NCBI GenBank assembly: GCA_900318275.1 | Contig: ONJY01000001.1 | Location: 50,978 to 114,977 of the forward strand | Direction of reading: 5' to 3' | Source of the DNA: an uncultured Bacteroidales bacterium | GTDB taxonomy: Bacteria > Bacteroidota > Bacteroidia > Bacteroidales > P3 | DNA length: 64,000 nt | Shown here: in pieces, positions 42,393-57,725 of the stretch | How the letters are laid out: each line of letters begins with the position of its first letter | Position numbering within the stretch: position 1 is the stretch's first letter | Made by a program: the position numbers and the translations under genes | Notes under the pieces: generated by a model | The model's input: the letters and a program-made list of their open reading frames with translations, nothing else | Database searches by the model: none | Told to the model about the DNA's origin: nothing

Positions 42393-42424
42393 TTTGCAAT
42401 TATAAAAATATTTTTATACCTTTG
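42393..42424 (+). promoter_or_regulatory. Promoter of the accessory cluster
   Basis: TTTG (42393-42396), 20 bases, TACCTTTG (42417-42424) is close to the ideal Bacteroidota promoter. It gives a leader of about 205 bases before the first gene at 42636, long enough to carry regulation. The leader contains a C-run and a GCGTGCGCAAAGCATGC near-palindrome. Confidence 0.75.
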
Positions 42425-42635
42425 CAGCGATGAAAATTTGTTGCAATGACCTGCACACATCTACATAACTCACTGACAATCACCCCCCCCCACCAGAAGC
42501 ATAACCCTCTTGGGATGTGCGGACAACCACACTGCCTCCATTTTATTTACCAATACCTCCTGCGTGCGCAAAGCATGCAGAGAGAGTCTTTTGTCTGATT
42601 CAAAAATATATTAATCAAATAAAAACACAATTATC

Positions 42636-43001
42636 ATGGGACTTTTAAACAACATCAAGGATGCCTTCAACAAGGCTGAATTCACGGTAGCACCGAACAA
42701 GAAACTGAAGACCATCTCGGCCGACTTCATGAAAGCTTTCGACCTGCAGCTGGCCTTCTACAAAGGCATGCAGCTTGCCGACCCCGAGATGACCCTCGCG
42801 GCGCTGAACAGCAAGACCACCAAGGAGGTCAACACCAAGGCCGACGGCCTCAAGATTAAAGGCTCGATGAAGGTGGGCGATGCCGAGAAACTCTTCGACC
42901 AGAACTTCGGCGTCACCGTCCAGATCAAAGACAAGGAAGGCAAGGCCTGCGTCCCCAATAATATCACCATCGGCCAGGCCGCCAGAGGGGAATACAAATG
43001 A
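42636..43001 (+). CDS. Small tandem-unit protein 1 (candidate beta-grasp repeat family)
   Basis: 121 residues, no signal peptide. Two copies of a unit of about 45 residues are visible: unit 1 PNKKLKTISADFMKAF, then LQLAFYKGMQLADPEMTLAAL; unit 2 GSMKVGDAEKLFDQNFG, then VTVQIKDKEGKACVPNNITI. Each unit has the pattern basic strand, helix ending in F..xFG, a hydrophobic strand, then D/N-x-x-T-hydrophobic. The same pattern recurs in the proteins at 45756, 46411, 46805, 47566 and 48267. The strand, GK.L.D..TL and strand order resembles the second half of ubiquitin-like folds; that likeness is inferred by eye. The function is unknown. This is the first gene of the cluster. Confidence 0.75.
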   Translation: MGLLNNIKDAFNKAEFTVAPNKKLKTISADFMKAFDLQLAFYKGMQLADPEMTLAALNSKTTKEVNTKADGLKIKGSMKVGDAEKLFDQNFGVTVQIKDKEGKACVPNNITIGQAARGEYK

Positions 43002-43019
43002 ATTGACAAAGATTAAACT

Positions 43020-43793
43020 ATGGAAAAAATAGTAACCTACAAGGGTTTTCGTTATCGTCTTTTAAATAGTAAAGAGGCGGAATTAATTGATGCCACTTCT
43101 GCAAAGGGTAAAGTAAAAATCCCTGAGACTATAATTGAGGGAGGAAAAGAATATACGGTAGTGTCTATTGGGGTTGAGAAATTGCCCATAGTAGAATTAC
43201 ATAGAATATATGATAAAAGACTAAAAAAAGGGTATCGAGATGAATGTGAAAAGAAGGAAGACGTCCCTTTTACACCATTTCGTCAGAGAATACATTCTGC
43301 TGACTATCCAGGGTATTACGAAGACAAAGATCGGTATAGTGGCCCCATAAGTGAAATCGTTTTGCCTTGCACTATCAAAAAAATATGTAGCGGTGCTTTG
43401 TATTATGTGAAACGCGGGGATAAACCTGGTCAATTACAGCCGGAAAAAATCATCCTCTCAGAAGGTATAAAAGAAATACCTACTTGTTTATGTGAAATGG
43501 GCGTCAAGGAACTGCACATTCCGTCCACGGTCAAGAATGTCCCCGAATTTGTGGCCTGGCCGTTGGAGGCTACAAGGAATGTGCAGGATGCGGCTCGCAA
43601 AGAAAAACAGTGGCCTCCAGAAATCTATAAAAAAAACAATCCTCCCGAGAAATATAAAGACGATTGGGCGTATAGGACCCAAATTATAATTCATAATGAT
43701 GAAGGGTTCGTAGCAGTGAATCCCATCAATGCACCCATAAAATATGTAGGCAAACCCGGCTCCAGCATATTGTCAAAAATCTTCAAAAAATAA
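43020..43793 (+). CDS. BspA-type leucine-rich-repeat protein
   Basis: 257 residues, cytoplasmic by appearance. LRR_5-like repeats appear as GKVKIPETI, ISEIVLPCTIKKICSGAL, EKIILSEGIKEIPTCL and KELHIPSTVKNVPEF, each a strand of the form .h.hP..h..I......, as in BspA surface proteins. The usual signal peptide and sorting domain are missing, and the N-terminus (YKGFRYRLLNSKEAELIDA) resembles the start of LRR folds that follow other cluster domains. The codon choice is more AT-rich than in its neighbours. It is probably a binding or adaptor protein of the cluster. Confidence 0.75.
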   Translation: MEKIVTYKGFRYRLLNSKEAELIDATSAKGKVKIPETIIEGGKEYTVVSIGVEKLPIVELHRIYDKRLKKGYRDECEKKEDVPFTPFRQRIHSADYPGYYEDKDRYSGPISEIVLPCTIKKICSGALYYVKRGDKPGQLQPEKIILSEGIKEIPTCLCEMGVKELHIPSTVKNVPEFVAWPLEATRNVQDAARKEKQWPPEIYKKNNPPEKYKDDWAYRTQIIIHNDEGFVAVNPINAPIKYVGKPGSSILSKIFKK

Positions 43794-43850
43794 AATCGGC
43801 CCAAAATCCGCTGAGGCAGTATTACAACGCATGTCTACATAAAACCGACT

Positions 43851-44747
43851 ATGGAAAAGAGTATTGAGACTTTGAATACAAAATCACTGCAAGATATCCT
43901 CAGAACCATCAAAGAATGTGATGACTCGGGGGATGGTTATACCGTAGACAAGAAGAGCATTCGTAAAGTGTTCAGCTTAACCGATAGCAGACATATTGAG
44001 GATGTGATGGCCCGTTTGGCATTGATTGATGGTATGTATTCCACTCAAATGAATCGCCGATACTATCCGTTGGAGGACCTGGCAGAAGTGCTGGTAGCAT
44101 TGGACAGGGAAAGTCCTCTGAGAAATAGGTTTAGAAGCTTCACTGCAGATTTGGATACAAATCATTTCAGCGTAGATGACAACAATAATTTGTGGAGCAA
44201 CGGATATGGTATTGGCAAAGACGGAACCCCCAAAGGCGCTGCAGTATCACTCATCAGCAAGTATGCATATTTTGAGACAGAATACAGATTTCCCATCTTT
44301 GACTCTATTGCATGCGAAGTTCTCCCGCTGTTGTGGCGCATAGTGATTGGTGACACCGTTCCTAAACTGATTTACAACAAAAGCAACCAGCAGATGGATG
44401 GCCAAAAGACCATTGTGGCCTTTACCACAGCAATAAACAAAATACGAATGAAACTTGGCTCGGGTGCTGATTACGACACACTTGACCGATTGATGTGGTA
44501 TACGGGCAAAATGCTGCGTGGTAATTTTTCACTTGTTTTTTCAAAAGATGATTATATAACATGGGCAGATATAGCACGGGGTTCCGGACTCAAGTTTGAT
44601 GATGAAAGTCTCAAAGAGGCAGTCAAAAAAATCAGTATAAAGCAACTGCCTTTTTTAGAAAGGACGGACAATAGGCATGTTAAAATGCTTTATGAATTAG
44701 CGCATGGATTAGCCGAAAACAGCGACTTGACAAACAATTTAAGTTGA
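43851..44747 (+). CDS. Conserved-looking protein of unknown function
   Basis: 298 residues, helical, no signal peptide or membrane segment. The N-terminal 90 residues (SLQDILRTIKECDDSGDGY, then SRHIEDVMARLALIDGMY) look like a small helical or winged-helix domain. A central AAVSLISKYAYFETEYRFPI followed by FDSIACEV resembles a motif, often SxxSKYLxF...FPIYDS, that I have seen in uncharacterised helix-hairpin-helix-like proteins. The C-terminal part may be a second helical domain (YITWADIARGSGLKFDDESL). The sequence is more AT-rich than the flanking small genes. No function is assigned. Confidence 0.65.
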   Translation: MEKSIETLNTKSLQDILRTIKECDDSGDGYTVDKKSIRKVFSLTDSRHIEDVMARLALIDGMYSTQMNRRYYPLEDLAEVLVALDRESPLRNRFRSFTADLDTNHFSVDDNNNLWSNGYGIGKDGTPKGAAVSLISKYAYFETEYRFPIFDSIACEVLPLLWRIVIGDTVPKLIYNKSNQQMDGQKTIVAFTTAINKIRMKLGSGADYDTLDRLMWYTGKMLRGNFSLVFSKDDYITWADIARGSGLKFDDESLKEAVKKISIKQLPFLERTDNRHVKMLYELAHGLAENSDLTNNLS

Positions 44748-44766
44748 CCAGAAAATAAAAAAACTT

Positions 44767-45741
44767 ATGTCAGAAATTCAGACGACCAATTATCCGAGCA
44801 CCGCGAAAGTGCTGGTGCGCAGTGAGAACATGAGCCGCACGGCTCTGGGCATCGCCCACGCCTACCTGCTCATCTACCCCAACTCGACGGTGGAGAACCT
44901 CAACAAGGCCTTCCCCAAAGAGGAGTTCGGCCAGGGGAGCGACCTCTTCCTAGGCCCCAACGAGCGTAAGGCTTACATCGAAGCCCACAAGAACGACGAG
45001 AAGAGCCTCCGCACCAACTACTTCTACGAAGAGGAGAAGGCTATGCTCAAGCTCAAGGACGGCAGCGAGGTGGCTGTGCTGCAGATGTGGAGCAGCGACA
45101 AGTTCCCCAAGCTGGTGGAATGGGCCAAGCGCTACGACATCTACGTGGCCGAGTTCACCAAAGGCGCCAAAGGCAAGCTGGGGTTCTTCGAGCTGGAATA
45201 CCTCAACAACTGGAAGCCCGTCATCATCGAGAAAGTGGTGGAGAAGAAGCACATCCCATGGTGGGTGTGGTTGCTGCTGGGATTGGCCGTCGTCGGCATC
45301 ATTCTGGCGCTGCTCTGCCGTCCGAAGGCCAAGACAGAGGTGGTGACGGTGACCGACACCGTGGTGCAGACAGTAGTCGACACCGTTTACATACAGCAGT
45401 TGGAGGAGATAGAGAACAACTTCAACGCTGCCGAGTTCGTAAAGGGCAAAGCCGACCTCAGCGAGGACGCCAAGTTCGTGCTGCACGACCTGGCCAAGCT
45501 GATGAACAAATATCCGGAGCTAAAACTCCGTATCGAAGGCCACACCAGCGCCGAAGGCGACGCCAACTACAACCAGAAGCTCAGCGAGGCCCGCGCGCAG
45601 GCCGCCGTCACCTTCCTCGTGGAGCATGAGGGCATCGACGCCAGCCGCCTGGTGGCCGAAGGCTTCGGCAGCAGCAAGCTGAAGAACGCCGACGACCCGA
45701 TGGCTCCGGAGAACCGTCGCACCGAATTCGAGATTATCTAA
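44767..45741 (+). CDS. Inner-membrane protein with cytoplasmic domain and periplasmic OmpA domain
   Basis: 324 residues without a cleavable signal. Residues 1-155 form a soluble domain of unknown family (SRTALGIAHAYLLIYPNST, then LKDGSEVAVLQMWSSDKFPK). One membrane helix lies at about 166-188 (WWVWLLLGLAVVGIILALLC). A coiled stretch leads to an OmpA/MotB-like domain (about 215-324) with LRIEGHTSAEGDANYNQKLS and the closing NRRTEFEI. The expected topology is N-terminus in the cytoplasm and OmpA domain in the periplasm bound to peptidoglycan, similar in layout to MotB. It would anchor the cluster proteins to the envelope. Confidence 0.8.
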   Translation: MSEIQTTNYPSTAKVLVRSENMSRTALGIAHAYLLIYPNSTVENLNKAFPKEEFGQGSDLFLGPNERKAYIEAHKNDEKSLRTNYFYEEEKAMLKLKDGSEVAVLQMWSSDKFPKLVEWAKRYDIYVAEFTKGAKGKLGFFELEYLNNWKPVIIEKVVEKKHIPWWVWLLLGLAVVGIILALLCRPKAKTEVVTVTDTVVQTVVDTVYIQQLEEIENNFNAAEFVKGKADLSEDAKFVLHDLAKLMNKYPELKLRIEGHTSAEGDANYNQKLSEARAQAAVTFLVEHEGIDASRLVAEGFGSSKLKNADDPMAPENRRTEFEII

Positions 45742-45755
45742 AACACAATTACATT

Positions 45756-46367
45756 ATGGCAACAACGACCAAGAAAACCACCGCCAAGAAACCGGCTGTG
45801 AAGAAGACCGCCACTGCAGCCAAGAAAACAACTGCTGCTGCCAAGCCCGCTGCCCAAAAGGCCACCGCAGCTGCCAAGCCGGCTGTGAAAAAGACCGCTG
45901 CCGCCAAGCCTGCCGTGAAAAAGGCCACCGCAGCCGCCAAGCCGGCTGTGAAGAAAGCCGCTCCGGTTAAGACCGCTGTCGAGTTGTCGGTGACCGGCAA
46001 CAAGAAAATCGGCACGCTGATGAAGGAGTTCAACAAGCAGTTCCCCTACCTGCGCCTGAAGATTTGCTACAGCTATGCCCGTCAGGCAGTGGCCAAAGGC
46101 GAGAGCATCAGCGGAATCGACGTCGACAAGACGCTGGCTTCGGTGCGTCGTGCCGATTCGGGTGGCGACATCTCGATTGGCGGCAACAAGAAAATCAAGA
46201 CTCTTGAGAAAGAGTTCGACACTGTATTCGGCCTCTACGCCCAGGTGTGCTACACCGAGAAAGACGGCCATCGCTATTACACCAGCGGCAGTGCCGACGA
46301 TATGACCCTTGCGGCCTTCAACAAAAAGTGCGAAGCCAATGGCTGCAAGAAGGGAGAATGGAAATAA
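45756..46367 (+). CDS. Small tandem-unit protein 2 with histone H1-like basic tail
   Basis: 203 residues. Residues 1-68 are almost only alanine, lysine, proline and threonine in an AAKPAVKK repeat, like bacterial histone H1-like proteins, so nucleic-acid binding is likely. Residues 70-203 carry two units of the cluster family: GNKKIGTLMKEFNKQF, then a long loop and DKTLASV; and GNKKIKTLEKEFDTVFG, then AQVCYTEKDG and DDMTLAAF. The close match of the two halves shows internal duplication. It begins 14 bases after the OmpA protein. Confidence 0.75.
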   Translation: MATTTKKTTAKKPAVKKTATAAKKTTAAAKPAAQKATAAAKPAVKKTAAAKPAVKKATAAAKPAVKKAAPVKTAVELSVTGNKKIGTLMKEFNKQFPYLRLKICYSYARQAVAKGESISGIDVDKTLASVRRADSGGDISIGGNKKIKTLEKEFDTVFGLYAQVCYTEKDGHRYYTSGSADDMTLAAFNKKCEANGCKKGEWK

Positions 46368-46410
46368 AGACCAATATTTTATTCACCACTTAAAACAATA
46401 CAATTCGATT

Positions 46411-46758
46411 ATGGAAATCAAAGTTGATGGACGCCTTTTGGTGTCGACGCTCTGCGAGCGCTTCAAAGAAGAGTTCGGTGGCACGCTGCGCGTGTACCAG
46501 GGACAGAAGCGCCTCACCGGCAGCGAGAAAGTTAGCGAGATAGCCACCAAGACCGGCAGCTACGAATGTCGTGGCAGCAAGACCGTCGGCGGCTTCGAGA
46601 AAGACATGATGGAGAACTTCGGGCTGAAAGTCCAGGTGGCTTCGGCCGACGACTGGGTGCTGGCCCTTGACGAGATGACCCTCGCCAAACTGCCCGAAAT
46701 CCCCAAGAACGCCAAGAAGGCCGACATGGATGCCCTCAAGGCAAAATACGCAAAATAA
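46411..46758 (+). CDS. Small tandem-unit protein 3
   Basis: 115 residues starting MEIKVDGRLLVSTLCERFKE. Unit 1 runs DGRLLVSTLCERFKEEFGG, TLRVYQGQKRL; unit 2 GSKTVGGFEKDMMENFG, LKVQVASADD and LDEMTLAKL. A short lysine-rich end follows. The open frame runs upstream into the previous gene's reading, but the ATG at 46411 opens on the family strand. Cytoplasmic; same family as the products at 42636 and 46805. Confidence 0.72.
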   Translation: MEIKVDGRLLVSTLCERFKEEFGGTLRVYQGQKRLTGSEKVSEIATKTGSYECRGSKTVGGFEKDMMENFGLKVQVASADDWVLALDEMTLAKLPEIPKNAKKADMDALKAKYAK

Positions 46759-46804
46759 ATTACAATTATCAACCCTTTTTATTAACCCATTAAAATTTTT
46801 AATT

Positions 46805-47119
46805 ATGGCAGAAATTGCATTAAAAGGACAGATGAAGGTGAAAACCCTCAAGGCTGATTTCAAGAAGGCTTTTGGTTCGACGCTCCGCGTCTACATGAGC
46901 CCCACCTGCAAAGGCCGCATGGCCGATGACGAGGCTACCCTCGCTTCCATCCGCGGCGAAGGCGCCAAAGGTGGCGAGCTGAAAGTGGTTGGCCAGACAA
47001 AGGTCAGCAGCTTCGAGAAGAAGATTGCCGAGATGTACGGCATCGGTGTCCAGGTGGCCAACGCCGACGACTCGGCCCTCGCCGCCAACGACGTCACCCT
47101 TTGCGGTGCCGCCAAGTAA
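46805..47119 (+). CDS. Small tandem-unit protein 4 (paralogue copy A)
   Basis: 104 residues, the minimal form of the family: unit 1 GQMKVKTLKADFKKAFG, TLRVYMSPTCKGRMADDEAT; unit 2 GQTKVSSFEKKIAEMYG, VQVANADDSALAANDVTL. It is nearly identical to the product at 47566-47880, and the DNA copy includes the leader (AACCCTTTTTATTAACCCAT) and the hairpin that follows the stop, so a unit of about 405 bases was duplicated. The C-terminus is CGAAK, with no di-glycine end. Cytoplasmic. Confidence 0.75.
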   Translation: MAEIALKGQMKVKTLKADFKKAFGSTLRVYMSPTCKGRMADDEATLASIRGEGAKGGELKVVGQTKVSSFEKKIAEMYGIGVQVANADDSALAANDVTLCGAAK

Positions 47120-47132
47120 GCCTATGGCAACC

Positions 47133-47169
47133 AATCCTGCGGGCGGGGGACCGCCCGCAGGGTTCCAAT
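47133..47169 (+). repeat. Intercistronic GC hairpin, copy 1
   Basis: CCTGCGGGCGG pairs perfectly with CCGCCCGCAGG around a 4-base loop, flanked by AAT and GTTCCAAT. It lies between the genes ending at 47119 and starting at 47183. There is no T-run, so it is not a simple terminator. Confidence 0.85.
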
Positions 47170-47182
47170 TTATAATAAAACG

Positions 47183-47524
47183 ATGAGATTCGAAGCCACA
47201 TCATCCGAAGCCGCATTGGCCGCCAACGGCAAAATCATCAACGCCGCCACCCCTTGGCACCTCATCGTCGACACCGACGAGGAGACCATCACCGTGCGCA
47301 AGCGCAACCTCACCATGATAGGAGTGGACGAGGACGTGCTGGCTTTCCGCTTCATCCGTCGCATCCGCATCGACCAGCACCTCATCGGTGCCGATATCGA
47401 GATTAAGGCCGTCGGCGGCACCGTCACCGCCTATTGCCTCAGCAAGAGCGACTGCAAGAAGATAAAACAGATACTGATGGAATATAATGCTACCAAGCGT
47501 GGAAAAGGAATAATATTTTCATAA
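47183..47524 (+). CDS. Small PH-like domain protein
   Basis: 113 residues. A beta-rich pattern with a final helix fits the bacterial PH-like fold: WHLIVDTDEETITVRKRNLT, VLAFRFIRRIRIDQHLIGAD, IEIKAVGGTVTAYCL, then the helix SKSDCKKIKQILMEY. No signal peptide. Such domains often mediate protein or membrane-lipid binding. It is inserted between the two near-identical 104-residue paralogues. The assignment rests on pattern only. Confidence 0.6.
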   Translation: MRFEATSSEAALAANGKIINAATPWHLIVDTDEETITVRKRNLTMIGVDEDVLAFRFIRRIRIDQHLIGADIEIKAVGGTVTAYCLSKSDCKKIKQILMEYNATKRGKGIIFS

Positions 47525-47565
47525 ACAATCAACCCTTTTTATTAACCCATTAAAACGTTTTAATT

Positions 47566-47880
47566 ATGGCAGAAATTGCATTAAAGGGACAGATGAAGGT
47601 GAAAACCCTCAAGGCTGATTTCAAGAAGGCTTTTGGTTCGACGCTCCGCGTGTACATGAGCCCCACCTGCAAAGGCCGCATGGCTGATGACGATGCCACC
47701 CTCGCATCAATCCGCGCCGAAGGCGCCAAAGGTGGCGAGCTGAAAGTGGTCGGCAACATGCAGGTCGGCAACTTCGAGAAGAAGATCGTCGAGATGTACG
47801 GCATCGGTGTCCAGGTGGCCAACGCCGCCGACACGGCCCTCGCCCCCAACGACGTCACCCTTTGCGGTGCCGCCAAGTAA
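47566..47880 (+). CDS. Small tandem-unit protein 5 (paralogue copy B)
   Basis: 104 residues, differing from the product at 46805 at about a dozen positions, most of them in the second unit (VVGNMQVGNFEKKIVEMYG, ANAADTALAPNDVTL). Shared leader and trailing hairpin show a recent duplication. Most changes preserve charge and hydrophobicity, so both copies look functional. Confidence 0.75.
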   Translation: MAEIALKGQMKVKTLKADFKKAFGSTLRVYMSPTCKGRMADDDATLASIRAEGAKGGELKVVGNMQVGNFEKKIVEMYGIGVQVANAADTALAPNDVTLCGAAK

Positions 47881-47948: not shown

Positions 47949-48206
47949 ATGGCGGTTCATAGATTTAAAACAGCAGGTGGCGTAACTTTCTGTGCCAAAT
48001 GCGGAACGACAGATAGCTTCTATTCATGCAGCGACAAAGGACATTCTTTTAAAATTGCCAAAGGAAAGATATTCTGTTCAAAATGCGGAACGACCGATAG
48101 CTTTTATTCATGCAGCGACAAAGGACATTCTTTTAAAATAATGTCAGACGGCGTTATACGTTGTTCAAAATGTGGAACGACTGATAGTTTCTATTCATGC
48201 GTGTAA
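47949..48206 (+). CDS. Triple zinc-ribbon repeat protein
   Basis: 85 residues from the ATG at 47949. Three nearly identical units of about 32 residues each hold CxKCGTTDSFYSC, and the first two continue SDKGHSFKI, so each has a CxxC pair, a third cysteine and a histidine: a plausible zinc-binding treble clef. The DNA copies are also nearly identical, showing recent tandem duplication. It could bind nucleic acid or another cluster protein. The third unit ends at YSCV, before its histidine. Confidence 0.7.
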   Translation: MAVHRFKTAGGVTFCAKCGTTDSFYSCSDKGHSFKIAKGKIFCSKCGTTDSFYSCSDKGHSFKIMSDGVIRCSKCGTTDSFYSCV

Positions 48207-48215
48207 AATACAATT

Positions 48216-48266: not shown

Positions 48267-49490
48267 ATGGCGACATTCAGCATTAGCGGACGCATGACCG
48301 TAAAGACGGTAAAGAAAAACTTTATGGACGCCTTTGGCGGGAGTCTCCGTATTCTGAAAGACGGCAAGCTTGCCGACGATGGAGCGACTATGGCTTCCCT
48401 CAAGGCGGAAGGATGCAAGGGTGGAGAGCTTGAGTTGAAAGGCAACACCAAGGTGGCCGGGATGAAGAAGAAGATTGCCGACCTGTATGGCATCAGCGTT
48501 GTAGTATACGCTGCCGATGGCAAGAAACCCGTGGACGACGGCCTGACGCTGGCCTCTATCGGTGCGCCTCAGGCTGCCTTCCCAGCGGAAAAACCTGCCG
48601 AAAAAAAAGAGCCGAAAGAGAAGCCCGCCAAAGAGCCGAAAGAGAAACCTGAACAGAAAGCGGCATCAGCCCAACCCACCGCCGCAGGCTTCTCTTTCAA
48701 CGAGTTGCTTAATGCCGCCCTAGCCGACGGCGTGCTGACCGACAAAGAGCGCGCCATTCTCCTCAAGAAAGCCACCGCCCAAGGCCTCGACCCCGACGAA
48801 GTGGAAATGATCATCGAAGGTCGATTGGCGAAGAAGATGCGTATGCAGCCCAAGGTCGAAAAGAAGAATGAGGAAAAGAAAAAAACTCATTCATCTGATA
48901 CCAATAATAGCATCTCGGACCATAACAGGGAGCAATTGATGAAAATCAAGGCGACAACTGGATATAAACAGACACAAATGCAGGATCACAACAGAGAACA
49001 GTTGGAAAGGATCAAGGCACTAAGAAAAACGTCGGAAAAACCGATACAACAGAAACAGCCAGTACCGACAAAACAGTCAACAACAACAGAAACGAAGCAA
49101 TCTTTAATGGAAAAGGCTGAAAAGTGTTTGAAAATAGGAGATGACAAGGAAGCTATAAAGATATACAAGAAGATCATTATGGACTATGATGAAGCCTGGG
49201 AATGTTATGAGAAACTGTTTATAATTTATGAGAAAAAAAGCGACTATAAAGAGGCAATAAAGTTCGGTACTCTATGGGCTGATGCAAGGTGGGAGAGGCC
49301 TGGGTCATGGAGAGATGTTGTAAAACTTATAGAGAACATGTTTGATGAAATGCTCACATCAAACCGTAAAAGAGATGCTTCTCGTTTACTTGATACCTAT
49401 GGTAAATATATCGACCATTATGCGTACAAAGCTTATGGTAGCATTTGGTATCATTTCAACGCAAATTCTCTTAGAAAAAAATTAAACTAA
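48267..49490 (+). CDS. Multidomain protein: tandem-unit, TerB-like and TPR-like parts
   Basis: 407 residues. Residues 1-105 are the cluster family domain, with the clearest internal duplication: GRMTVKTVKKNFMDAFGGSL then KDGKLADDGATMASL, against GNTKVAGMKKKIADLYG then AADGKKPVDDGLTLASI. A lysine/proline/glutamate linker follows. Residues about 148-195 (NAALADGVLTDKERAILLKK, then GLDPDEVEMIIEG) match the TerB-type helical pattern with its DG..T..E motif. The rest is charged, with one TPR-like hairpin (AEKCLKIGDDKEAIKIYKKI). TerB domains occur in tellurium-type stress systems. The second half is AT-rich compared with the first. Confidence 0.75.
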   Translation: MATFSISGRMTVKTVKKNFMDAFGGSLRILKDGKLADDGATMASLKAEGCKGGELELKGNTKVAGMKKKIADLYGISVVVYAADGKKPVDDGLTLASIGAPQAAFPAEKPAEKKEPKEKPAKEPKEKPEQKAASAQPTAAGFSFNELLNAALADGVLTDKERAILLKKATAQGLDPDEVEMIIEGRLAKKMRMQPKVEKKNEEKKKTHSSDTNNSISDHNREQLMKIKATTGYKQTQMQDHNREQLERIKALRKTSEKPIQQKQPVPTKQSTTTETKQSLMEKAEKCLKIGDDKEAIKIYKKIIMDYDEAWECYEKLFIIYEKKSDYKEAIKFGTLWADARWERPGSWRDVVKLIENMFDEMLTSNRKRDASRLLDTYGKYIDHYAYKAYGSIWYHFNANSLRKKLN

Positions 49491-51050: not shown

Positions 51051-51800
51051 ATGTTACAAGACTTTTCACCAAGGACTGAGGAGGCGTTGGGATACTACGT
51101 CTACCTGCTGGTGGACCCGCGAGACGGGAAGATTTTTTATGTGGGCAAGGGCAAAGGCGACCGCGTCTTTGCACACTTGCGCTGCGCCGAGTCAACCGAC
51201 GCTGAGAGTGAAAAGTTGAACACCATCCGCGACATCAACAAAGCAGGCAAGGAGGTGCGCTACTATATTGCCCGTCACGGATTGGAGGAAGCCGAGGCTT
51301 TCCTCGTGGAGAGCGTGCTGATAGACCTGCTGACCTTCCGCGACTTCAGCTCCGTGGCCAACATCACCAACATACAATCCGGCCATCATCAATTCGATCG
51401 CGGCATCAAGACCGCCGAAGAACTGGAAGCCCTCTACAATGGTGGCGAATTGGAGGAGCACGGCATCATGGACCGTGTGCTGACTATCAACATCAACGGC
51501 ACCTACAACCGGAACTACAAAGGCAAGGAGAGCATATACGAAGCCACACGTAAGAGCTGGAGACTATCGCCACGTCGAGCCGAGAAGGTGCAGTATGTGC
51601 TGAGTGAATATCGCGGCGTGGTGCGTGCCATCTTCGTGCCTGAGAAATGGGATCATGAAAAGGACAACGACAAGCGTTGGCTGTTCGAAGGTTACGAAAT
51701 CACAGAGCAGAACAACCCCGAAATCTACCACCGCTACATCAACAAGCACCTGTCCAAAACCAAAGGTACACAGAACCCGATTCATTATTACAACGTATAA
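51051..51800 (+). CDS. LEM3-like GIY-YIG domain protein
   Basis: 249 residues. Residues 12-125 form a GIY-YIG nuclease-type domain of the LEM-3-like subgroup: GYYVYLLVDPRDGKIFYVGK, then GKGDRVFAHL with the arginine and a later EAEAFLVESVLID bearing the metal glutamate. Residues 140-249 (LTININGTYNRNYKGKESIY, then EATRKSWRL and RWLFEGYE) are the domain shared with the N-terminus of the previous gene product. GIY-YIG enzymes cut DNA; in this subgroup the target is unknown. It starts 21 bases after the previous stop. Confidence 0.85.
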   Translation: MLQDFSPRTEEALGYYVYLLVDPRDGKIFYVGKGKGDRVFAHLRCAESTDAESEKLNTIRDINKAGKEVRYYIARHGLEEAEAFLVESVLIDLLTFRDFSSVANITNIQSGHHQFDRGIKTAEELEALYNGGELEEHGIMDRVLTININGTYNRNYKGKESIYEATRKSWRLSPRRAEKVQYVLSEYRGVVRAIFVPEKWDHEKDNDKRWLFEGYEITEQNNPEIYHRYINKHLSKTKGTQNPIHYYNV

Positions 51801-51818: not shown

Positions 51819-52079
51819 ATGAGCGTAGAATACTATCGCAAGAAACTTATCGACCTGCGGGCCGATGTCGCCAAAGAGCGCGAAGCAAAGAAAAGAGACA
51901 ACGAACGCTATGCCGGCTACATCAAGAATGCCAGCTCACCAAGCAGCAAAGCCAGCTACCGCAAGCAGAAGATCGACCACGCCGCCAGCCACGACCGTCA
52001 AATCGAAAGCCTGAAGCGCCAGATAGAGAGCGCCAAGGAAAGCCTGGCACGTGAGCGTGCTGCCGCCAAGCGGAAATAA
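51819..52079 (+). CDS. Small coiled-coil protein
   Basis: 86 residues: YYRKKLIDLRADVAKEREAK, a short serine-rich break (NASSPSSKAS), and a second helix SHDRQIESLKRQIESAKESL ending in RERAAAKRK. This is a helical hairpin with heptad spacing and a strong positive end. No enzyme features. It probably acts as a partner or assembly factor for the GIY-YIG or channel proteins on either side, 18 and 37 bases away. Confidence 0.65.
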   Translation: MSVEYYRKKLIDLRADVAKEREAKKRDNERYAGYIKNASSPSSKASYRKQKIDHAASHDRQIESLKRQIESAKESLARERAAAKRK

Positions 52080-52116: not shown

Positions 52117-53814
52117 ATGATGACGAAATTCAAGCAGGAGTTGGCTCGTGTCTTCGACGACAACCTGCGCACAAGACAATGGCAGAACTGGGTGGACTAT
52201 GCCATCATTGGACTGATTATCATCAGCACCATAGAGGTCTTCCTTTCGACGTTTGACGGCATTGCCAACCGCTACGGCGAATGGCTTAAGGCCATTGACC
52301 TCTTCACCACCATATTCTTCACCATCGAGGTGACGTTGAGGATATGGTGCGCCGACCTCAGCGACCCCAAGTACAAGGGGTTCTGGGGCAGGGTGAGGTA
52401 CTGCTTCTCGTTCTATGGCTTCGTCGACCTCGTCTCCACCTACAGCTTCTATGTGGCGCTAATATTCCCCGTACCATATGCAGCGCTGAAGGTGCTGAGG
52501 GTGTTCCGCCTGCTGAGGGTGTTCCGCTACATGAAGTCGTTCCGCCTGCTGGGTGACGCCTTCCGGTCGAAACGGAGCGAGCTGTGGATCTCGCTGCAGT
52601 TCCTCTGCATCGTGACCCTCATCCTCTCGTTCCTGCTCTTCTTCGTCGAGCATCAGGCACAGCCGGAGGTCTATGACAACGGCTGGCGCAGCGTGCTCTG
52701 GGCTTTCGCCCAGTATATAGGTGACCCGGGCAACTTCGCCGACACGCCGCCCATCACCTTCTGGGGCCGTGTGATAGCGGTCATCGTGGGTGTGCTGGGC
52801 ATAGCCATCTTCGCCGTGCCGGCAGGTCTGATAGGTTCTGGATTCATCGAGGTTATCGAGGACGACAAAAAAGAAAAGACGTTGAAGGAACAACGTGATT
52901 TGATATATCAACGCTTCGAGGCCAACCACTCGAAGAAAAAGGCCCTGTTGAGCGACGATACGCATAGCCGACCCGCCCCTGCGCGCTATCTGTCTACGGA
53001 AGTCCTCCATTCAATATGCATGCTGACGGACAACGAGATACTGGAGGCCGTGCGCACGTCGGACGACCTGCGGCTGCGAGCCATGAAGAGCGACGAGAGC
53101 CTGCGAGTGAACGACCTGACGGTGGTGGAGCGGTTCCTTTCCAACACCAGTTACGGCTATTGCCGTTGGGACGCCGACGAGAAGCTTGTGCTGCTCGGCT
53201 CGATGGGGGCCGTCGAGTATGGCATCTCGCACATCATGGCCACACTGGCCGAGAACACCTCATACAATATCATAAGCCGTGAGAAACGCTTCTACGGAGC
53301 CGCCAACGAAACCGGCCAGCACGACAGCCCGTTCTATGCCGACATGCAGGTCACCGACGGCAACCCCATGTTCGAAGACTACATGGATGCGCTGAAGCAG
53401 ATACATCGCGGCCAGCGGGTGGTGCACATCATGAGCGGTGCTTCGGGTCGTGCCGACATCGAGGTGCAGTGGGGCATGCCATCGGGTACCGAAGGGTATC
53501 GGTTTGACGGCTCGCATGTGGCCGAAGCGGACCGCCAGTGGGTTGAGGAATTCTGCGAACGGCTGCGTCGCAACGCTGCCGAAGTCACGGTGCATTCCGC
53601 CGCACGCAAGGATTACACCTTCAACTTCACCTTCGCGACCCACAACAAGGCATGCTTCGGGCTGAAGGACACCTACATCGACCGCGCCATCTACAACCAT
53701 AGCGGTGCCACCGTTGTGGCGGTATACCTCAATGTGCTCTCGGTACTGAAAGCCCCGGACGAACGATATTTTGCCGCCCTCAAGGTGCTGATGGACACAT
53801 TGGAAAATAATTGA
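52117..53814 (+). CDS. Voltage-gated-type ion channel with novel C-terminal domain (copy A)
   Basis: 565 residues. Residues 20-260 follow the six-helix Ion_trans layout: S1 VDYAIIGLIIISTIEVFLS, S2-S3, an S4 with regularly spaced positives (LRVFRLLRVFRYMKSFR), S5, a pore helix and S6 ending AVPAGLIGSGF. The filter region reads AFAQYIGDPGNF instead of the potassium-type TVGYGD, so selectivity cannot be assumed. The last 300 residues form a soluble domain I do not recognise (LRLRAMKSDESLRVNDLTVV, SGASGRADIEVQWGM). It would sit in the inner membrane with the tail in the cytoplasm, where it could gate the pore. A paralogue follows. Confidence 0.85.
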   Translation: MMTKFKQELARVFDDNLRTRQWQNWVDYAIIGLIIISTIEVFLSTFDGIANRYGEWLKAIDLFTTIFFTIEVTLRIWCADLSDPKYKGFWGRVRYCFSFYGFVDLVSTYSFYVALIFPVPYAALKVLRVFRLLRVFRYMKSFRLLGDAFRSKRSELWISLQFLCIVTLILSFLLFFVEHQAQPEVYDNGWRSVLWAFAQYIGDPGNFADTPPITFWGRVIAVIVGVLGIAIFAVPAGLIGSGFIEVIEDDKKEKTLKEQRDLIYQRFEANHSKKKALLSDDTHSRPAPARYLSTEVLHSICMLTDNEILEAVRTSDDLRLRAMKSDESLRVNDLTVVERFLSNTSYGYCRWDADEKLVLLGSMGAVEYGISHIMATLAENTSYNIISREKRFYGAANETGQHDSPFYADMQVTDGNPMFEDYMDALKQIHRGQRVVHIMSGASGRADIEVQWGMPSGTEGYRFDGSHVAEADRQWVEEFCERLRRNAAEVTVHSAARKDYTFNFTFATHNKACFGLKDTYIDRAIYNHSGATVVAVYLNVLSVLKAPDERYFAALKVLMDTLENN

Positions 53815-53866
53815 CAGACAACATAACTAACAAACAACTGCTGTTCTCGAAACAACCTATTCAAAC

Positions 53867-55585
53867 ATGATGAAGAAATTCAAGCAAGAGCTGGCGCGTG
53901 TCTTCGACGACAACCTGCGCACAAAACAATGGCAGAACTGGGTCGACTATGCCATCATCGGACTGATTATCATCAGCACCGTCGAGGTGTTCCTCTCCAC
54001 CTTCGACAGCGTTGCCAGCCGCTACGGTGAGTGGCTGAGAGCCATAGACCTTTTCACCACCATATTCTTCACCGTCGAGGTCACGTTGAGGATATGGTGT
54101 GCCGACCTCATCGACCCCAAGTACAAGGGCTTCTGGGGCAGGGTGCGCTACTGCTTCTCGTTCTACGGGCTCATCGACATCCTCTCAACCTACACCTTCT
54201 ACATAGCTTTCCTGCTGCCTATCCCCTACTCGCTGCTCAAGGCGTTGCGAATAGCGCGACTGATGCGCGTGTTCCGCTACCTCAAGGCCTTCCGCATCCT
54301 CTCGAAAGCCATAAGCAACAAGAGTCGCGAGCTGCTCGTCTCGCTCGAGTTCCTTGCCATCGTGACACTCATCCTGTCGTTCATCCTCTACTTCGTGGAG
54401 CATGAGGCGCAGCCGGAGGTGTATGAGAACGGATGGACGTCGGTGGTATGGGCTTTCGCCCAGTATATCGGCGACCCCGGGGGATTTGCCGACATGCCGC
54501 CCGTCACCCTTGCGGGGCAGATCATCGCCTGTCTGGTGGGCATCCTCGGCATCGCCATCTTCGCCGTGCCGGCGGGATTGGTGGGCAGCTCGTTCAGCGA
54601 CGTGATGGAAGAAGAGCAGAAAAAACAAGAGCTGAAAGACACCGCTGTCGCCATCAACGAGATGATGCTGGTGAAAAGCACCAGGAGAGAGAACATGTAC
54701 TGGCCGGCAAAGAACCTCAGCTTCGGCGACCTGACGCTTAATCTCAGCATCACCGAGGAAGAGATTATCAAATCGGTAGCAGCATCAAGCAATCTGCGTG
54801 TCAAAAATCTGGCTGCAGTTGTAAACGATGGGCCAAAGACCGACATGATGGTGGTGAACCAGTTCTGTGTGAACGAGAGCTATGGATGTCACTTGGAACG
54901 TGGTTCCAGCGTCACCATCGTCAACCCGCTGGGTTTGGGCGACAACGGGCTGAGTTACTTCGACTGGCATATTGCCCAGCTGGGGGGATTCAACTATGTG
55001 GCCAACGAGATATTCTCACGCCAGCATTCCGAACGCGAGAAAAGGTGCAATTTCTACACCATAGACGATGAAAGCAAAGAAAACGCAAATTTCCTGAGAT
55101 TTGCCGACCATATCTTGACCGGACGAGGCAAGGAAGACTGGATTATTGTCATTGCCGGTGAACAAATTGTCAAGAACAAAACACACATGCACTTCGAGTT
55201 CGGTGGCGAGACAGGAGAGGAGCGTTTCGATTTCGAAGGAGGCATAGCCCCCGACCGAGACACCGTGAAGAAGCTCTTCGCCGACATGCAGAACACGTTG
55301 CAGAAAATTGGCTTGACTGTCGATGCCCACAAGGTGCAGCCTAAACTCAACCCACAGAACATATCGCGCTACCTGCAGTCGAAAACAGAAGCCAACGTGC
55401 TGCTGCTGACCATGTCATACAAACTCATGGTGTTCGGCAAAGAGGTGCACAGTGCCATCGTCAATATCGCCGACGTGCTCAACCGCAACCTCGAACACAA
55501 CCGTCCTGCAGGATTACACAAAGACGAATACCTTGTGCGTACGATAGATTCGGACTATTGGACAAAACTGTATGGTTTAAGCTGA
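53867..55585 (+). CDS. Voltage-gated-type ion channel with novel C-terminal domain (copy B)
   Basis: 572 residues. The first 270 are very similar to copy A, including S4 (LKALRIARLMRVFRYLKAFR) and the same AFAQYIGDPGG filter region. The C-terminal domain is related but far more divergent, keeping pieces such as SNLRVKNL and the later GEERFDFEGGIAPD against copy A's GTEGYRFDGSHVAE. A conserved pore with diverging tails suggests two sensors driving the same kind of channel, or a heteromer. It ends 15 bases before the pyroglutamyl peptidase gene. Confidence 0.85.
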   Translation: MMKKFKQELARVFDDNLRTKQWQNWVDYAIIGLIIISTVEVFLSTFDSVASRYGEWLRAIDLFTTIFFTVEVTLRIWCADLIDPKYKGFWGRVRYCFSFYGLIDILSTYTFYIAFLLPIPYSLLKALRIARLMRVFRYLKAFRILSKAISNKSRELLVSLEFLAIVTLILSFILYFVEHEAQPEVYENGWTSVVWAFAQYIGDPGGFADMPPVTLAGQIIACLVGILGIAIFAVPAGLVGSSFSDVMEEEQKKQELKDTAVAINEMMLVKSTRRENMYWPAKNLSFGDLTLNLSITEEEIIKSVAASSNLRVKNLAAVVNDGPKTDMMVVNQFCVNESYGCHLERGSSVTIVNPLGLGDNGLSYFDWHIAQLGGFNYVANEIFSRQHSEREKRCNFYTIDDESKENANFLRFADHILTGRGKEDWIIVIAGEQIVKNKTHMHFEFGGETGEERFDFEGGIAPDRDTVKKLFADMQNTLQKIGLTVDAHKVQPKLNPQNISRYLQSKTEANVLLLTMSYKLMVFGKEVHSAIVNIADVLNRNLEHNRPAGLHKDEYLVRTIDSDYWTKLYGLS

Positions 55586-55600
55586 GCTCAACAAGACGTC

Positions 55601-56194
55601 ATGAAGCTGCTTATTACAGGATTTGAACCATTCGGCAGTGAGAATGCCAATCCCTCATGGGAAGTGGCGAAACGCATCGCATTGGTTCATCCTGACGGTG
55701 TAGAAGTCTACGCCAGACGTCTGCCCGTTGTGTTTAACAGAGTGGGCGACGTGCTGTGGGAAGCAGTAGAGCGGTTCGCTCCTGATGTGGTCCTGATGTT
55801 GGGCGTTGCAACAAAACGATCGGTGATAAGCTATGAACGTGTTGCCATCAACATCGATGAATCGAGCAAAATGGACAACGAAGGGAAAACCTACGCTGGG
55901 ACACCCATACGCCGCGATGGTCCTGCAGCTTATTTTTCGACACTTCCCATTAAAGAGATGCGTGATGCCACCCTCTCGGCCGGACTGGCCGCCGAGATTT
56001 CGAACTCCGCCGGCACATACGTATGCAACCACGCGATGTACGAATGTCTTTATCGCATAGAACAAAGTGGGTTGGCCACACGAGCAGGATTTGTGCATGT
56101 GCCACCAGTCAACGGAAACGGCGAAACGGGAATAGACAAACTGACTGAAGCTATATATATTGCAATAGAAACACTCAAAAAACATGAAGTTTAA
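55601..56194 (+). CDS. pcp: Pyroglutamyl peptidase I
   Basis: 197 residues beginning MKLLITGFEPFGSENANPSW, the signature start of C15 pyrrolidone-carboxylate peptidase. The catalytic glutamate lies in the RVAINIDESSKMDNEG region, the cysteine in SAGTYVCNHAMYECLY and the histidine in GFVHVPPV near the end. The enzyme removes N-terminal pyroglutamate from peptides in the cytoplasm. It overlaps the next gene by 11 bases. Its place just after the channels may mean it acts with them or only shares the transcript. Confidence 0.93.
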   Translation: MKLLITGFEPFGSENANPSWEVAKRIALVHPDGVEVYARRLPVVFNRVGDVLWEAVERFAPDVVLMLGVATKRSVISYERVAINIDESSKMDNEGKTYAGTPIRRDGPAAYFSTLPIKEMRDATLSAGLAAEISNSAGTYVCNHAMYECLYRIEQSGLATRAGFVHVPPVNGNGETGIDKLTEAIYIAIETLKKHEV

Positions 56195-56954
56195 ATATGT
56201 TGTTCTTACGGCAATGATGTTGCCGATGATGGTACTTGCCCAAGAGGGAGTCGGCTTCACTGCCGACAGGCCCGGAGCCTCCACCGGTCCCGACGTACTG
56301 CCGCTGCATAGGGTGCAGTGGGAGACGGGTGTGGGCTTCAGCCGCACCTTCGACAGCGAAGCGTTCACGCTAAACAACACACTCCTGCGCTATGGCTTGA
56401 CCAATTTCGCCGAGTTGAGATTAGGCTTTGACATACTGAATCTACGTCAACGCCACACAGAGGACTCCAAATACGGAGTGTCGGCCCTCACCATAGGCAG
56501 CAAGATAAAGATGCTCGAAGGGGCGGGGCTTATGCCCAGCGTGTCGGCCTTGATAGAGATGGCTTGTCCACATATCGGCAGCAGGGATTTTGTTCCCGAC
56601 CACCTGGCGCCATCGCTCTACCTGCTCGTCAACCACGATGTCGCCGACTGGCTCGGCATCGGCTATTCCGCCGGCGCCGAATGGGGCGGCAGCGACCCTG
56701 CGCCGGCAGCCTTCTGGGCTTTGACGCTCAGCTTCGCACCTGTCGACAAGCTCGGTCTTTTCGTAGAGAGCTACAACAGATATTATCAAACGAAAGACCC
56801 GTTGCTCAATTCGAAGGGCGACTACTCGGTTGATTTCGGTGTGACATACATGGTGCACCCGAAGGTGCAGCTTGATGTAGCGGCAGACTTGAACCTACAG
56901 CAACCGGATAAATACTATGCCGTCAGTGCCGGAGTAGCTTGGCAGATCAACTGA
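56184..56954 (+). CDS. Outer-membrane transporter-like protein (phenol MetA family type)
   Basis: 256 residues with a signal peptide (KYVVLTAMMLPMMVLAQ). The mature part opens GVGFTADRPGASTGPDVLPL, followed by strand pairs such as VQWETGVGFSRTF, LLRYGLTNFAELRLGFDI and the closing YYAVSAGVAWQIN. This is the pattern of the MetA-pathway outer-membrane barrel family, whose substrates are mostly unknown. The start overlaps pcp by 11 bases, so translation is probably coupled. Confidence 0.75.
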   Translation: MKFKYVVLTAMMLPMMVLAQEGVGFTADRPGASTGPDVLPLHRVQWETGVGFSRTFDSEAFTLNNTLLRYGLTNFAELRLGFDILNLRQRHTEDSKYGVSALTIGSKIKMLEGAGLMPSVSALIEMACPHIGSRDFVPDHLAPSLYLLVNHDVADWLGIGYSAGAEWGGSDPAPAAFWALTLSFAPVDKLGLFVESYNRYYQTKDPLLNSKGDYSVDFGVTYMVHPKVQLDVAADLNLQQPDKYYAVSAGVAWQIN

Positions 56955-57010
56955 TTGCAAACATCCTTTTAGACAACAACCACAAAATAAAAAACCAAAT
57001 ACTCACTGCT

Positions 57011-57157
57011 ATGTCAATATCAAAAACGAGATCCGTCCTTTACAAGACAGCCAAAGTGCTGGGCGACATAGATGCTGTAAAAAAAGGCAAAGTTGGCAAA
57101 CGTGTAAAAAGCCGCCTATTAGGCAAGCTTACCGGCAAATTGCTGAAAAAATTATAG
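57011..57157 (+). CDS. Small basic amphipathic protein (48 residues)
   Basis: Reads MSISKTRSVLYKTAKVLGDI, then DAVKKGKVGKRVKSRLLGKL and TGKLLKKL. It has about fifteen lysines or arginines and only two acidic residues, and a C-terminal amphipathic helix. It could bind membranes or nucleic acid. No family is recognised. It is the first of three small helical genes at the end of the cluster. The ATG at 57011 follows an AT-rich leader; longer readings overlap the barrel gene. Confidence 0.6.
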   Translation: MSISKTRSVLYKTAKVLGDIDAVKKGKVGKRVKSRLLGKLTGKLLKKL

Positions 57158-57216
57158 CAGCTCACCATCTTTCCGCCCTATCTGATAGAATACTTCGGTT
57201 ATGAATTAATTGTTTT

Positions 57217-57525
57217 ATGGCACTCATTAACATCGACAAACTGAAAGATAGCGCCGGCAAAGCCCTCAAAGACGCCTCGGAATGGACTTCAAAAGCCACC
57301 AAAGACGTTTCCGACTGGACTTCGCAGACAGTCAAGGAGGTGTCGTCGCAGACATCGGAACTAAGCACCAAGGCCATCCGCGCCATGTTGAAAGGAGTAG
57401 ACCTCGACGGACTTCTGGTTCGCATAGACGAATACCAGCAGAAGAGCGGAAAGGATGCATCGAAGCTTATCGAGTTTATCGGGAACCTCAAACAACTGCA
57501 ACAAGATGGAACAGGAGAAGAGTGA
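57217..57525 (+). CDS. Small amphipathic helical protein (102 residues)
   Basis: The N-terminal half is built of 11-residue-like units (DASEWTSKATKDVSDWTSQTV, KEVSSQTSELSTKA), as in apolipoprotein- or LEA-like amphipathic helices; the C-terminal half (GVDLDGLLVRIDEYQQKSG, KDASKLIEFIGNLKQL) is a second helix pair. No signal peptide. Membrane-surface binding is a reasonable guess. It overlaps the next gene by 20 bases. Confidence 0.65.
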   Translation: MALINIDKLKDSAGKALKDASEWTSKATKDVSDWTSQTVKEVSSQTSELSTKAIRAMLKGVDLDGLLVRIDEYQQKSGKDASKLIEFIGNLKQLQQDGTGEE

Positions 57526-57676
57526 GAAGATGACCGTGCAGAAGCTGGCGCAAAGCGTGCCGTTGGCCGATGTGCTCGACATCGCAGAAGATGTGGCCAA
57601 ATATGTTCCTGCCGCCAGCGGGGTGATTAAAATAGTCATCAAGATATTGCGCTTGCTTCTTACGATTAAGAAATGA
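57506..57676 (+). CDS. Small protein with C-terminal hydrophobic helix (56 residues)
   Basis: Starts MEQEKSEKMTVQKLAQSVPL and ends in a hydrophobic, basic-tipped helix (SGVIKIVIKILRLLLTIKK) that could insert into or lie on the membrane. The start is chosen because it opens within the last codons of the previous gene (20-base overlap), the usual sign of coupled translation. It is the last gene before the cluster terminator. It could be a membrane-active small protein. Confidence 0.6.
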   Translation: MEQEKSEKMTVQKLAQSVPLADVLDIAEDVAKYVPAASGVIKIVIKILRLLLTIKK

Positions 57677-57688
57677 TATGAATCTATC

Positions 57689-57725
57689 GCCAGACGATTT
57701 TTTCGTCTGGCCGCAGCTTTTTTTG
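57689..57725 (+). terminator. Terminator of the accessory cluster
   Basis: A 9-bp perfect stem GCCAGACGA/TCGTCTGGC with a T5 loop, then CGCAGCTTTTTTTG. It closes the cluster 13 bases past the last gene. Confidence 0.8.

Follow-up and report, generated by a model that had tools for sequence, protein, structure and literature searches.

A modular Bacteroidales gene cluster of small two-unit proteins, an OmpA-type membrane protein and exchangeable channels and nucleases: a possible anti-phage system

We analysed a 64,000-nt stretch of the genome of an uncultured Bacteroidales bacterium (assembly GCA_900318275.1, contig ONJY01000001.1, positions 50,978 to 114,977 of the forward strand), referred to below as the window. 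Its positions 42636–57676 hold a run of 21 genes in ~15 kb, all on the plus strand and with intergenic gaps of −20 to +68 nt (Table 1). The products include six small paralogues of a family designated F0 (s1–s6), a probable coiled-coil protein (F1, the coil), an OmpA-domain protein (F2), a GIY-YIG nuclease and two voltage-gated-type channels (F5). A sequence-only reading of this DNA had proposed an undescribed membrane-linked system, and that proposal was partly supported: the gene set appears to be undescribed, and its small proteins and channels co-occur in other genomes. We interpret the cluster as a modular, envelope-anchored protective system of Bacteroidales with exchangeable effectors, most likely anti-phage, an interpretation to which we give about an even chance of being correct.

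To identify related loci, a profile of the six F0 paralogues was searched against 295 genomes of the order and matched 14, the source genome included. With s4 as the only query, scanning genome contigs yielded 27 further loci. Of the 27 titles, 12 point to the gut or faeces of herbivores (cattle, yak, horse, sheep, deer, buffalo), and others are coded. The window, these 27 loci and 15 neighbourhoods of other profile matches, to which two genomes contributed two loci each, made up 43 sets, all of which contain F0 by selection; the short loci L001–L033 and L076–L102 were excluded from the neighbourhood counts. According to tblastn searches with the window genes, partner genes recur in many loci in shuffled order. 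Families were then counted by de novo clustering of open reading frames (ORFs) and with profiles at a threshold of 1e-6. By profile, the 43 sets contained F0 (43), the coil F1 (29), the OmpA protein F2 (23), a regulator-like protein F3 (22), a kinase F4 (21), the channel tail of F5 (18), F9 (16), a lipoprotein-like protein F6 (14), F8 (14), a TerB protein F7 (13), a GIY-YIG protein F10 (13), pcp (F13; 8), a PH-like protein F12 (8), a KAP NTPase F11 (7) and F14 (7). A second channel family, F15, has a profile that also matches F5 membrane parts, and its count is therefore given as the six members found by clustering. Of the four families F1, F2, F4 and F5 (tail), two or more occurred in 31 of the 43 sets and three in 20. 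No locus pair was near-identical over its full length, the best pair reaching 93%. In 36 sets, all 158 genes of eleven families (F1, F2, F4–F11 and F15) lay on the F0 strand. The distant F0 matches without the core, L069–L075, belong to the 43 sets and were excluded from this strand count; F3, also outside it, was divergent in 6 of 22 cases.

Because the loci had been selected through F0, they cannot by themselves establish that its partners accompany it, and we performed reciprocal searches of the 295 genomes, taking coil and channel tail as queries. Eight genomes from seven families contained the coil, all of them F0 genomes, and always on the F0 contig; six of the 14 F0 genomes had no coil. 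The channel tail was found in six genomes, five of which were F0 genomes. With the source genome left out, F0 was present in 7 of 7 coil genomes (p 5e-11) and 4 of 5 channel-tail genomes (p 1e-5) against a background of 13 of 294, by a hypergeometric test uncorrected for relatedness. The sequence-only reading had named recurrence of the small proteins with the channel or GIY-YIG genes in other genomes as support for one system, and both the 31 sets and the reciprocal searches indicate such recurrence for the channel; the opposite outcome, that the two never lie near each other elsewhere, was examined and did not refute its claim. In a wider search of 395 genomes of the phylum, an improved F0 profile matched ten, the source genome included. 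One of these, from another class (G486), carries in a single run F0, F8 and the N-terminal domain of F2 with its hydrophobic segment but no OmpA domain.

The comparison of two loci from different genomes, L036 and L062, showed different effectors between like flanks. The pair matches at 87% in an upstream block with the regulator, at 86% over kinase, coil and s1, and at 83% in a downstream block. The variable part comprises 5.3 kb in L036, with the nuclease-like F14, F9 proteins, F0 and the KAP NTPase, and 3.4 kb in L062, with a GIY-YIG-like protein (by eye), F0 and an F5 channel; only 184 nt of these parts align, within the F0 gene. A sampled relative of F14 matched PDDEXK_4 at 0.0036. A representative KAP NTPase matched the PADLOC models PDC-S20, PifA and QatA. 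By eye, the KAP NTPase has an F9-like tail at its end. The parts, their co-occurrence, their common strand and the swap of effectors between like flanks are evident from the sequence. Locus L036 also encodes, at 7178–7450, a 90-aa chimera of a Lys/Ala-rich, s2-like start and the end of an OmpA domain, likely a trace of recombination.

One effector gene of the window proved to be known. The sequence-only reading had counted the GIY-YIG protein as part of an undescribed system; according to sequence comparison, the gene at 51051–51800 is the anti-phage nuclease CMoRE/PD-T4-3, and cleavage of 5-hydroxymethylcytosine (5hmC) and glucosyl-5-hydroxymethylcytosine (5ghmC) DNA is predicted for it. Its product is a full-length PD-T4-3 protein (PADLOC 1.9e-49, the model covering residues 3–246 of 249) and matched the CMoRE structure 9u75 in phmmer (1.5e-35). 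The C-terminal modification-sensing domain is present according to the PADLOC model and the domain alignment, as are the Arg and Glu residues that we take to be those of the family pattern. The three tyrosines of the GIYxY-YIG motif are likewise present and align with Y17, Y19 and Y31 of the published enzyme (PMC12923530). PD-T4-3 now goes by the name CMoRE. The published work describes it as an endonuclease that depends on DNA modification and acts on 5hmC/5ghmC DNA, its nuclease domain lying at the N terminus and its reader domain at the C terminus, and as a single-component system in E. coli; it reports having found no homologues of that reader (PMC12923530).

In the window, the reader domain also begins the neighbouring protein, encoded at 49515–51029 (phmmer 2.4e-10 to 9u7u; BLASTP 2e-9 to the 51051 product). 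There it is followed by an Ala/Glu/Lys-rich stretch and BspA-type leucine-rich repeats (LRRs; LRR_5 2e-49), and the protein had no nuclease match. A profile built from the two window copies and L065 matched 13 of the 295 genomes. Judged from the ORFs by eye, seven of these have the reader together with GIY-YIG (G000, G274, G207, G186, G041, G088, G154) and four have it without GIY-YIG, in ORFs of ~110–122 aa (G068, G293, G258, G109); one G258 ORF sits within a longer frame, and G190 and G111 are fragmentary or ambiguous. Outside CMoRE, the reader was observed in the LRR fusion (49515–49904) and, judged from the ORFs, in small Bacteroidales proteins of ~110–122 aa (L116, L118, L119, L123, L126).

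Because CMoRE is present in only 2 of the 43 sets, the window and L065, we class it on sequence grounds as exchangeable cargo. Locus L047 encodes at 11330–12172 an enzyme of AbaSI/PvuRts1I type (4.2e-36 to AbaSI), presumably a different enzyme class directed at the same kind of modified DNA; SRA and PvuRts1I-like domains occur in cargo. Two unrelated types of modified-cytosine nuclease thus serve as cargo, CMoRE in the window and L065 and the AbaSI/PvuRts1I type in L047. Further GIY-YIG genes were noted. In L072 (8312–11217), F0 proteins, one of which has by eye a hydrophobic segment at its C terminus, adjoin an F10 gene and two further genes that probably encode a DEDDh exonuclease and a DUF6884 protein; the rest of the core is not present. 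A third GIY-YIG-like family, F32 (by eye), occurs as cargo in L035 (951–1883 and 12321–13244) and L062 (9223–10140).

The F5 channels have a PF00520 fold with invariant S4 arginines (R128, R131, R134 and R137). All 18 aligned rows have the pore motif Y-x-GDPG, and the K+-channel filter TVGYG is not present. In a Foldseek search, Kv/KCNQ proteins matched from 1.9e-8, and the 50 matches listed fit Kv-type membrane parts. The tail gave no match in a profile search of the PDB or in Pfam, NCBIfam, PADLOC and PHROGs, whereas the membrane part does match. Three pore motifs occur across the loci: Y-x-GDPG, T[IV]EGW and TVGYGD. The F15 channels carry T[IV]EGW and were found by clustering in six loci, one of which also has F5; L048 combines F15 with a TVGYGD channel. 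Because the motif varies between loci, the conserved property would be ion flux rather than one particular ion. The sequence-only reading had set pcp apart as the lone core-metabolism gene of the cluster. Instead, pcp recurs: clustering found it in six sets, the window included, and in five of these it adjoins a channel.

Each F0 paralogue consists of two similar units, and in the source genome all six lie inside this cluster; a seventh candidate, on another contig, was not accepted (E 0.015). No convincing match was found in Pfam (six paralogues scanned), NCBIfam (four), PADLOC (three) or PHROGs (two). An AlphaFold2 model of s4, built from 46 natural relatives, had a pLDDT of 84 and a pTM of 0.68. 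Its top Foldseek matches in the PDB were ISG15 and linear di-ubiquitin (best E 0.027, probability 0.51; none below 0.001). The HOIL-1L ubiquitin-like domain superimposed with a root-mean-square deviation of 1.8 Å over 47 columns (probability 0.82, E 0.33), and several single ubiquitin-like domains did so at 1.8–2.4 Å across 45–47 columns; we take each of these to cover one half of s4. A profile search of PDB sequences with s4 returned zero matches. The model is suggestive of a tandem ubiquitin-like fold without proving it.

Among the other recurrent proteins, the coil had no convincing match in Pfam or PHROGs, the two libraries scanned. The OmpA motif of F2 is kept in 17 of 18 aligned rows, and L103 has no OmpA domain. 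The kinase of the relatives, F4, is of Ser/Thr type: its K, HxD and DFG do not vary across 19 rows, and by eye it also has a hydrophobic segment; one relative's member matched Pkinase at 2.7e-34 (Pfam). The F3 protein, of which the one member scanned had no Pfam match, is called a regulator by its look only. The TerB protein F7 occurs in 13 loci, with a Pfam match of 2e-6 for one member; according to the literature, TerB domains also feature in two defence systems, Shango and Bunzi (PMC10952713).

A search of the 64 kb for the Bacteroidota promoter pattern TTTG-N17-23-TANNTTTG gave five matches, where shuffled sequence would lead one to expect 0.58. Near the cluster, its only plus-strand matches lie just 5′ (42393–42424) and just 3′ (57733–57763), and none was found between the first of these and the terminator-like hairpin at 57689–57725. 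The stretch 57677–57800 has a folding z of −3.84, with none of the shuffles equally good; a generic sigma-70/terminator scan listed neither the cluster promoter nor the terminator as a strong site. The downstream neighbour, an AAA ATPase gene, begins 134 nt on, behind its own promoter match (57733–57763). One promoter, one terminator and a common strand, as the sequence-only reading had it, were borne out, and its count of about 18 genes rose to 21. The gene caller missed the genes at 47949 and 57011, which are supported by a zinc-ribbon match and by tblastn relatives, respectively. Strong stem-loops that lack a T run lie behind three genes, those at 46805, 47566 and 47949 (z −4.9, −4.5 and −3.8), and they could tune expression. 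These three sites notwithstanding, a single uninterrupted transcript is likely. The recent duplicates s4 and s5 each carry a stem-loop. We rejected the palindromes as gene-cassette recombination sites: over the 43 sets and L091, the motif occurs nowhere but in the window and, a single time, in L034. Short-repeat arrays of GAGAATT units and of GTAGCCGTCTTGTAGCCGTTTA units lie upstream of the cluster, at 41003–41477.

Our favoured interpretation can be put as a working model, in which the coupling of the parts is what we infer. The reusable core would comprise several F0 adaptors, the coil and the membrane OmpA protein, joined in about half of the sets by the kinase and the regulator-like protein. 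The OmpA protein would grip peptidoglycan and, together with readers like the CMoRE-type reader–LRR protein, would signal either envelope disturbance or modified foreign DNA. The F0 adaptors, possibly tandem ubiquitin-like, would tie these sensors to the effectors together with the coil and without covalent conjugation, so that the small proteins may carry the signal to channel and nuclease. As outputs, CMoRE would cut hydroxymethylcytosine DNA, an activity known for E. coli homologues, and the channels would open, dissipate ion gradients and halt the infected cell. In another form, the cluster would be an immune hub built on non-conjugated ISG15-like adaptors, with signals passing from the OmpA protein, and in many relatives the kinase, through adaptors and coil to channels and nucleases, and with the reader–LRR protein as sensor. 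The voltage-gated-type channels would then depolarise the cell, and the nucleases would recognise hypermodified phage DNA. We hold this form tentatively and consider it rather unlikely.

Several observations weigh against an anti-phage role. According to profile searches, the window has neither kinase F4 nor regulator F3; F4 was also not found in the source genome, a single genome that is 88.6% complete and in which an empty answer alone proves nothing, and F3 was not searched genome-wide. The ubiquitin-like fold of F0 is a weak prediction (Foldseek E 0.027, empty PDB profile search). Twelve of the 43 sets, some of them short contigs, have fewer than two of F1, F2, F4 and the F5 tail, and G148 has a channel tail without an F0 match, on a 12.5-kb contig where the channel adjoins a protein matching a BspA-type LRR protein. 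CMoRE, described in E. coli as a single-component system (PMC12923530), need not depend on its neighbours. The protein s4 matched none of 72,556 plasmid and 50,697 phage records, on which ground a mobile-element reading was also rejected. Nor are the flanks defence islands: among 131 flank proteins scanned with PADLOC at 1e-20 (138 had been listed; 8 of them were omitted, as were proteins shorter than 150 aa, and one cargo protein was added), 14 models were matched, several of them housekeeping-like, each by one protein except one by two; the match to type IIG restriction possibly stems from the one L048 protein taken over from the cargo list. A control scan of 27 window proteins matched 33 models, with helicase-type proteins seemingly behind most matches among the 25 listed, which makes it uninformative as a control, and the scan of 38 cargo proteins had no matched control. 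Finally, eight genomes of other orders have F0 without other profiled families nearby, one protein each except for two lying 5 kb apart in G327, and in at least four of the eight genomes (L104–L107) F0 stands beside universal stress genes (by eye). This pattern favours a general response to envelope or ion stress, in which OmpA protein, kinase, TerB protein, channels and F0 would sense wall or ionic stress and the nucleases would be passengers. The other-order relatives (L104–L111) include several beside universal stress, CBS or small heat-shock-like (Hsp20-type) genes (by eye), 22 of the 43 sets have an F5 or F15 channel by clustering, TerB proteins recur, and the flanks are mostly not defence genes. 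Homeostasis, however, hardly explains why a channel is swapped for a KAP NTPase and a nuclease-like protein between like flanks; nor does it readily fit two unrelated types of modified-cytosine nuclease or the patchy distribution, with only 8 of 295 genomes having the coil. We regard a stress response as unlikely, if still a serious possibility.

The genes might instead be independent cassettes under one promoter, at a site that accepts insertions, co-inherited and with products that do not cooperate. The shuffled gene order, the duplication of s4 and s5 along with their stem-loops, the L036 chimera and the single-component nature of CMoRE in E. coli (PMC12923530) would fit such a site. By contrast, the coil and the channel tail are nearly confined to F0 genomes, all 158 genes share a strand, and F0 units fused to TerB/TPR-like parts (48267) and the F9-like tail of the KAP NTPase are what would be expected of adaptors; we consider independent cassettes doubtful and quite unlikely. 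A ubiquitin-like conjugation system of Bil type, with the small proteins attached to targets, is suggested by the ISG15 and di-ubiquitin matches of s4, a fold match that is not significant. Covalent conjugation is disfavoured because the F0 C-termini are AAGK/AAK rather than GG and because no E1, E2 or deubiquitinase match was found among 20 window, 10 recurrent-family and 38 cargo proteins, and we judge this explanation highly improbable.

Under either a protective or a stress reading, the L036/L062 pair shows a like core with different output, and the core families recur jointly in Bacteroidales, and partly in another class, yet have no convincing match in the libraries scanned for each. Should the system prove immune, its voltage-gated-type channels, among which three pore motifs occur, would form an unusual kind of defence effector, and the CMoRE reader domain, reported without relatives, would become a sensor module able to move between proteins. 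Should it prove a stress system, a clear parts list is at hand.

The features of the cluster are collected in Table 1. The Pfam scan covered 20 of the 21 genes, all but 57506. Of the domains named in the sequence-only reading, it supported OmpA, the zinc ribbon, the LRRs at 49515, GIY-YIG and the two Ion_trans channels; the six two-unit paralogues were likewise confirmed, by comparison with one another. The PH-like (0.07), TPR (0.014) and DUF533/TerB-like (s6; 9e-5, below the family cut-off) assignments are weak, and the LRRs at 43020 had no match.

Table 1. Features of the gene cluster in window coordinates, with the evidence for each
Feature	Position	Strand	Evidence
Bacteroidota-type promoter (TTTG...TATACCTTTG)	42393..42424	+	pattern match, 5 in 64 kb vs 0.58 expected
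s1, small two-unit protein, F0 family, s1 type	42636..43001	+	tblastn relatives 67-85%
257-aa protein, LRR-like by eye	43020..43793	+	Pfam: no match
298-aa protein, family F24	43851..44747	+	clustered in 3 sets, one of them the window
F2: N-terminal domain, hydrophobic segment, OmpA domain	44767..45741	+	Pfam PF00691 4.8e-19
s2: Lys/Ala-rich start, then F0 units	45756..46367	+	F0 paralogue
s3: F0 protein	46411..46758	+	F0 paralogue
s4: F0 protein; predicted fold weakly like tandem ubiquitin-like units	46805..47119	+	model, Foldseek
Stem-loop, 32-nt palindrome after s4	47133..47164	+	copies 47897-47928, 48216-48247; strong folding
PH-like small protein, F12	47183..47524	+	bPH_3 0.07 only; 8/43 sets by profile
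s5: F0 protein, 89% identity to s4	47566..47880	+	F0 paralogue
Triple zinc-ribbon protein	47949..48206	+	Zn_Ribbon_1 1e-7, 3 stretches
s6: F0 protein joined to weakly matched TerB/DUF533-like and TPR-like parts	48267..49490	+	DUF533 9e-5, TPR 0.014
CMoRE-type reader domain (~residues 1-130), Ala/Glu/Lys-rich stretch, LRR_5	49515..51029	+	phmmer, BLASTP, LRR_5 2e-49
CMoRE/PD-T4-3 homologue: GIY-YIG nuclease and reader domain	51051..51800	+	PADLOC 1.9e-49, Pfam GIY-YIG 6e-16
F1: 86-aa probable coiled-coil protein, core part with high conservation	51819..52079	+	alignment of 21 rows with 28 invariant columns
F5 channel A: voltage-gated-type channel, ~320-aa tail	52117..53814	+	Ion_trans 6e-19; 47% to channel B
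F5 channel B: layout as channel A, Kv/KCNQ-like membrane part, filter QYIGDPG	53867..55585	+	Ion_trans 1e-23
pcp, pyroglutamyl peptidase	55601..56194	+	Pfam 4e-56
Outer-membrane-type protein, F16, Phenol_MetA_deg	56184..56954	+	Pfam 5e-19; 5 sets
Small basic protein	57011..57157	+	tblastn relatives in L034, L058
Small protein F36	57217..57525	+	relative in L034
Small protein F37	57506..57676	+	relative in L034
Terminator-like GC hairpin and nearby T run	57689..57725	+	hairpin 57689-57711, T run 57717-57724 ~6 nt on

Comparison with characterized systems indicated partial likeness to several. The gene at 51051–51800 is, like CMoRE/PD-T4-3, full-length with the GIY-YIG tyrosines and a reader domain. 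CMoRE is described as a single gene, whereas here it lies inside a 21-gene unit and a second, neighbouring protein carries the reader without a nuclease, fused to LRRs. The window proteins gave only a weak DUF533/TerB-like match (9e-5) and no TerC or TerD match in Pfam, unlike tellurium (Ter) systems. With voltage-gated cation channels, F5 shares the Ion_trans fold and the S4 arginines; it differs from K+ channels in having Y-x-GDPG in place of TVGYG. To Bil (bacterial ISG15-like conjugation), the likeness is the two-unit ubiquitin-like look of F0 and is weak; the proteins scanned include no conjugation enzymes and the F0 C-terminus is not GG. Effector-associated-domain and vWA-MoxR conflict systems combine diverse effectors with common small adaptor domains (PMC8195603, PMC7159879). 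The window proteins had no vWA or MoxR match in Pfam, and F0 is predicted to be alpha/beta rather than a helical bundle and is mostly stand-alone.

The closest parallels are in logic. Zorya joins a membrane protein with a peptidoglycan-binding OmpA-type domain to ion flux and exchangeable cytosolic effectors (PMC11890865), and PADLOC ZorB models match the OmpA part of the 44767 protein (9e-8). However, no MotA match was found in the 20 window proteins scanned (E ≤ 1), the only related match being ZorA3 at 0.024 in the 48267 protein; the channels here are of voltage-gated type, and F0 and F1 are other families. CapK/CapS places a kinase and a regulator beside diverse exchangeable operons, CapK being a GHKL-type kinase and CapS a STAS protein (PMC13373217). 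By contrast, the relatives described here have a Pkinase-family kinase with a hydrophobic segment and the regulator-like F3, and the window has neither. The logic is thus near that of Zorya and of the CapK/CapS operons, yet their defining parts are not found here. A search of the open-access literature, with subscription papers and preprints mostly outside its scope, returned no description of this gene set. On these two grounds we call the system new, with CMoRE as one already known member gene.

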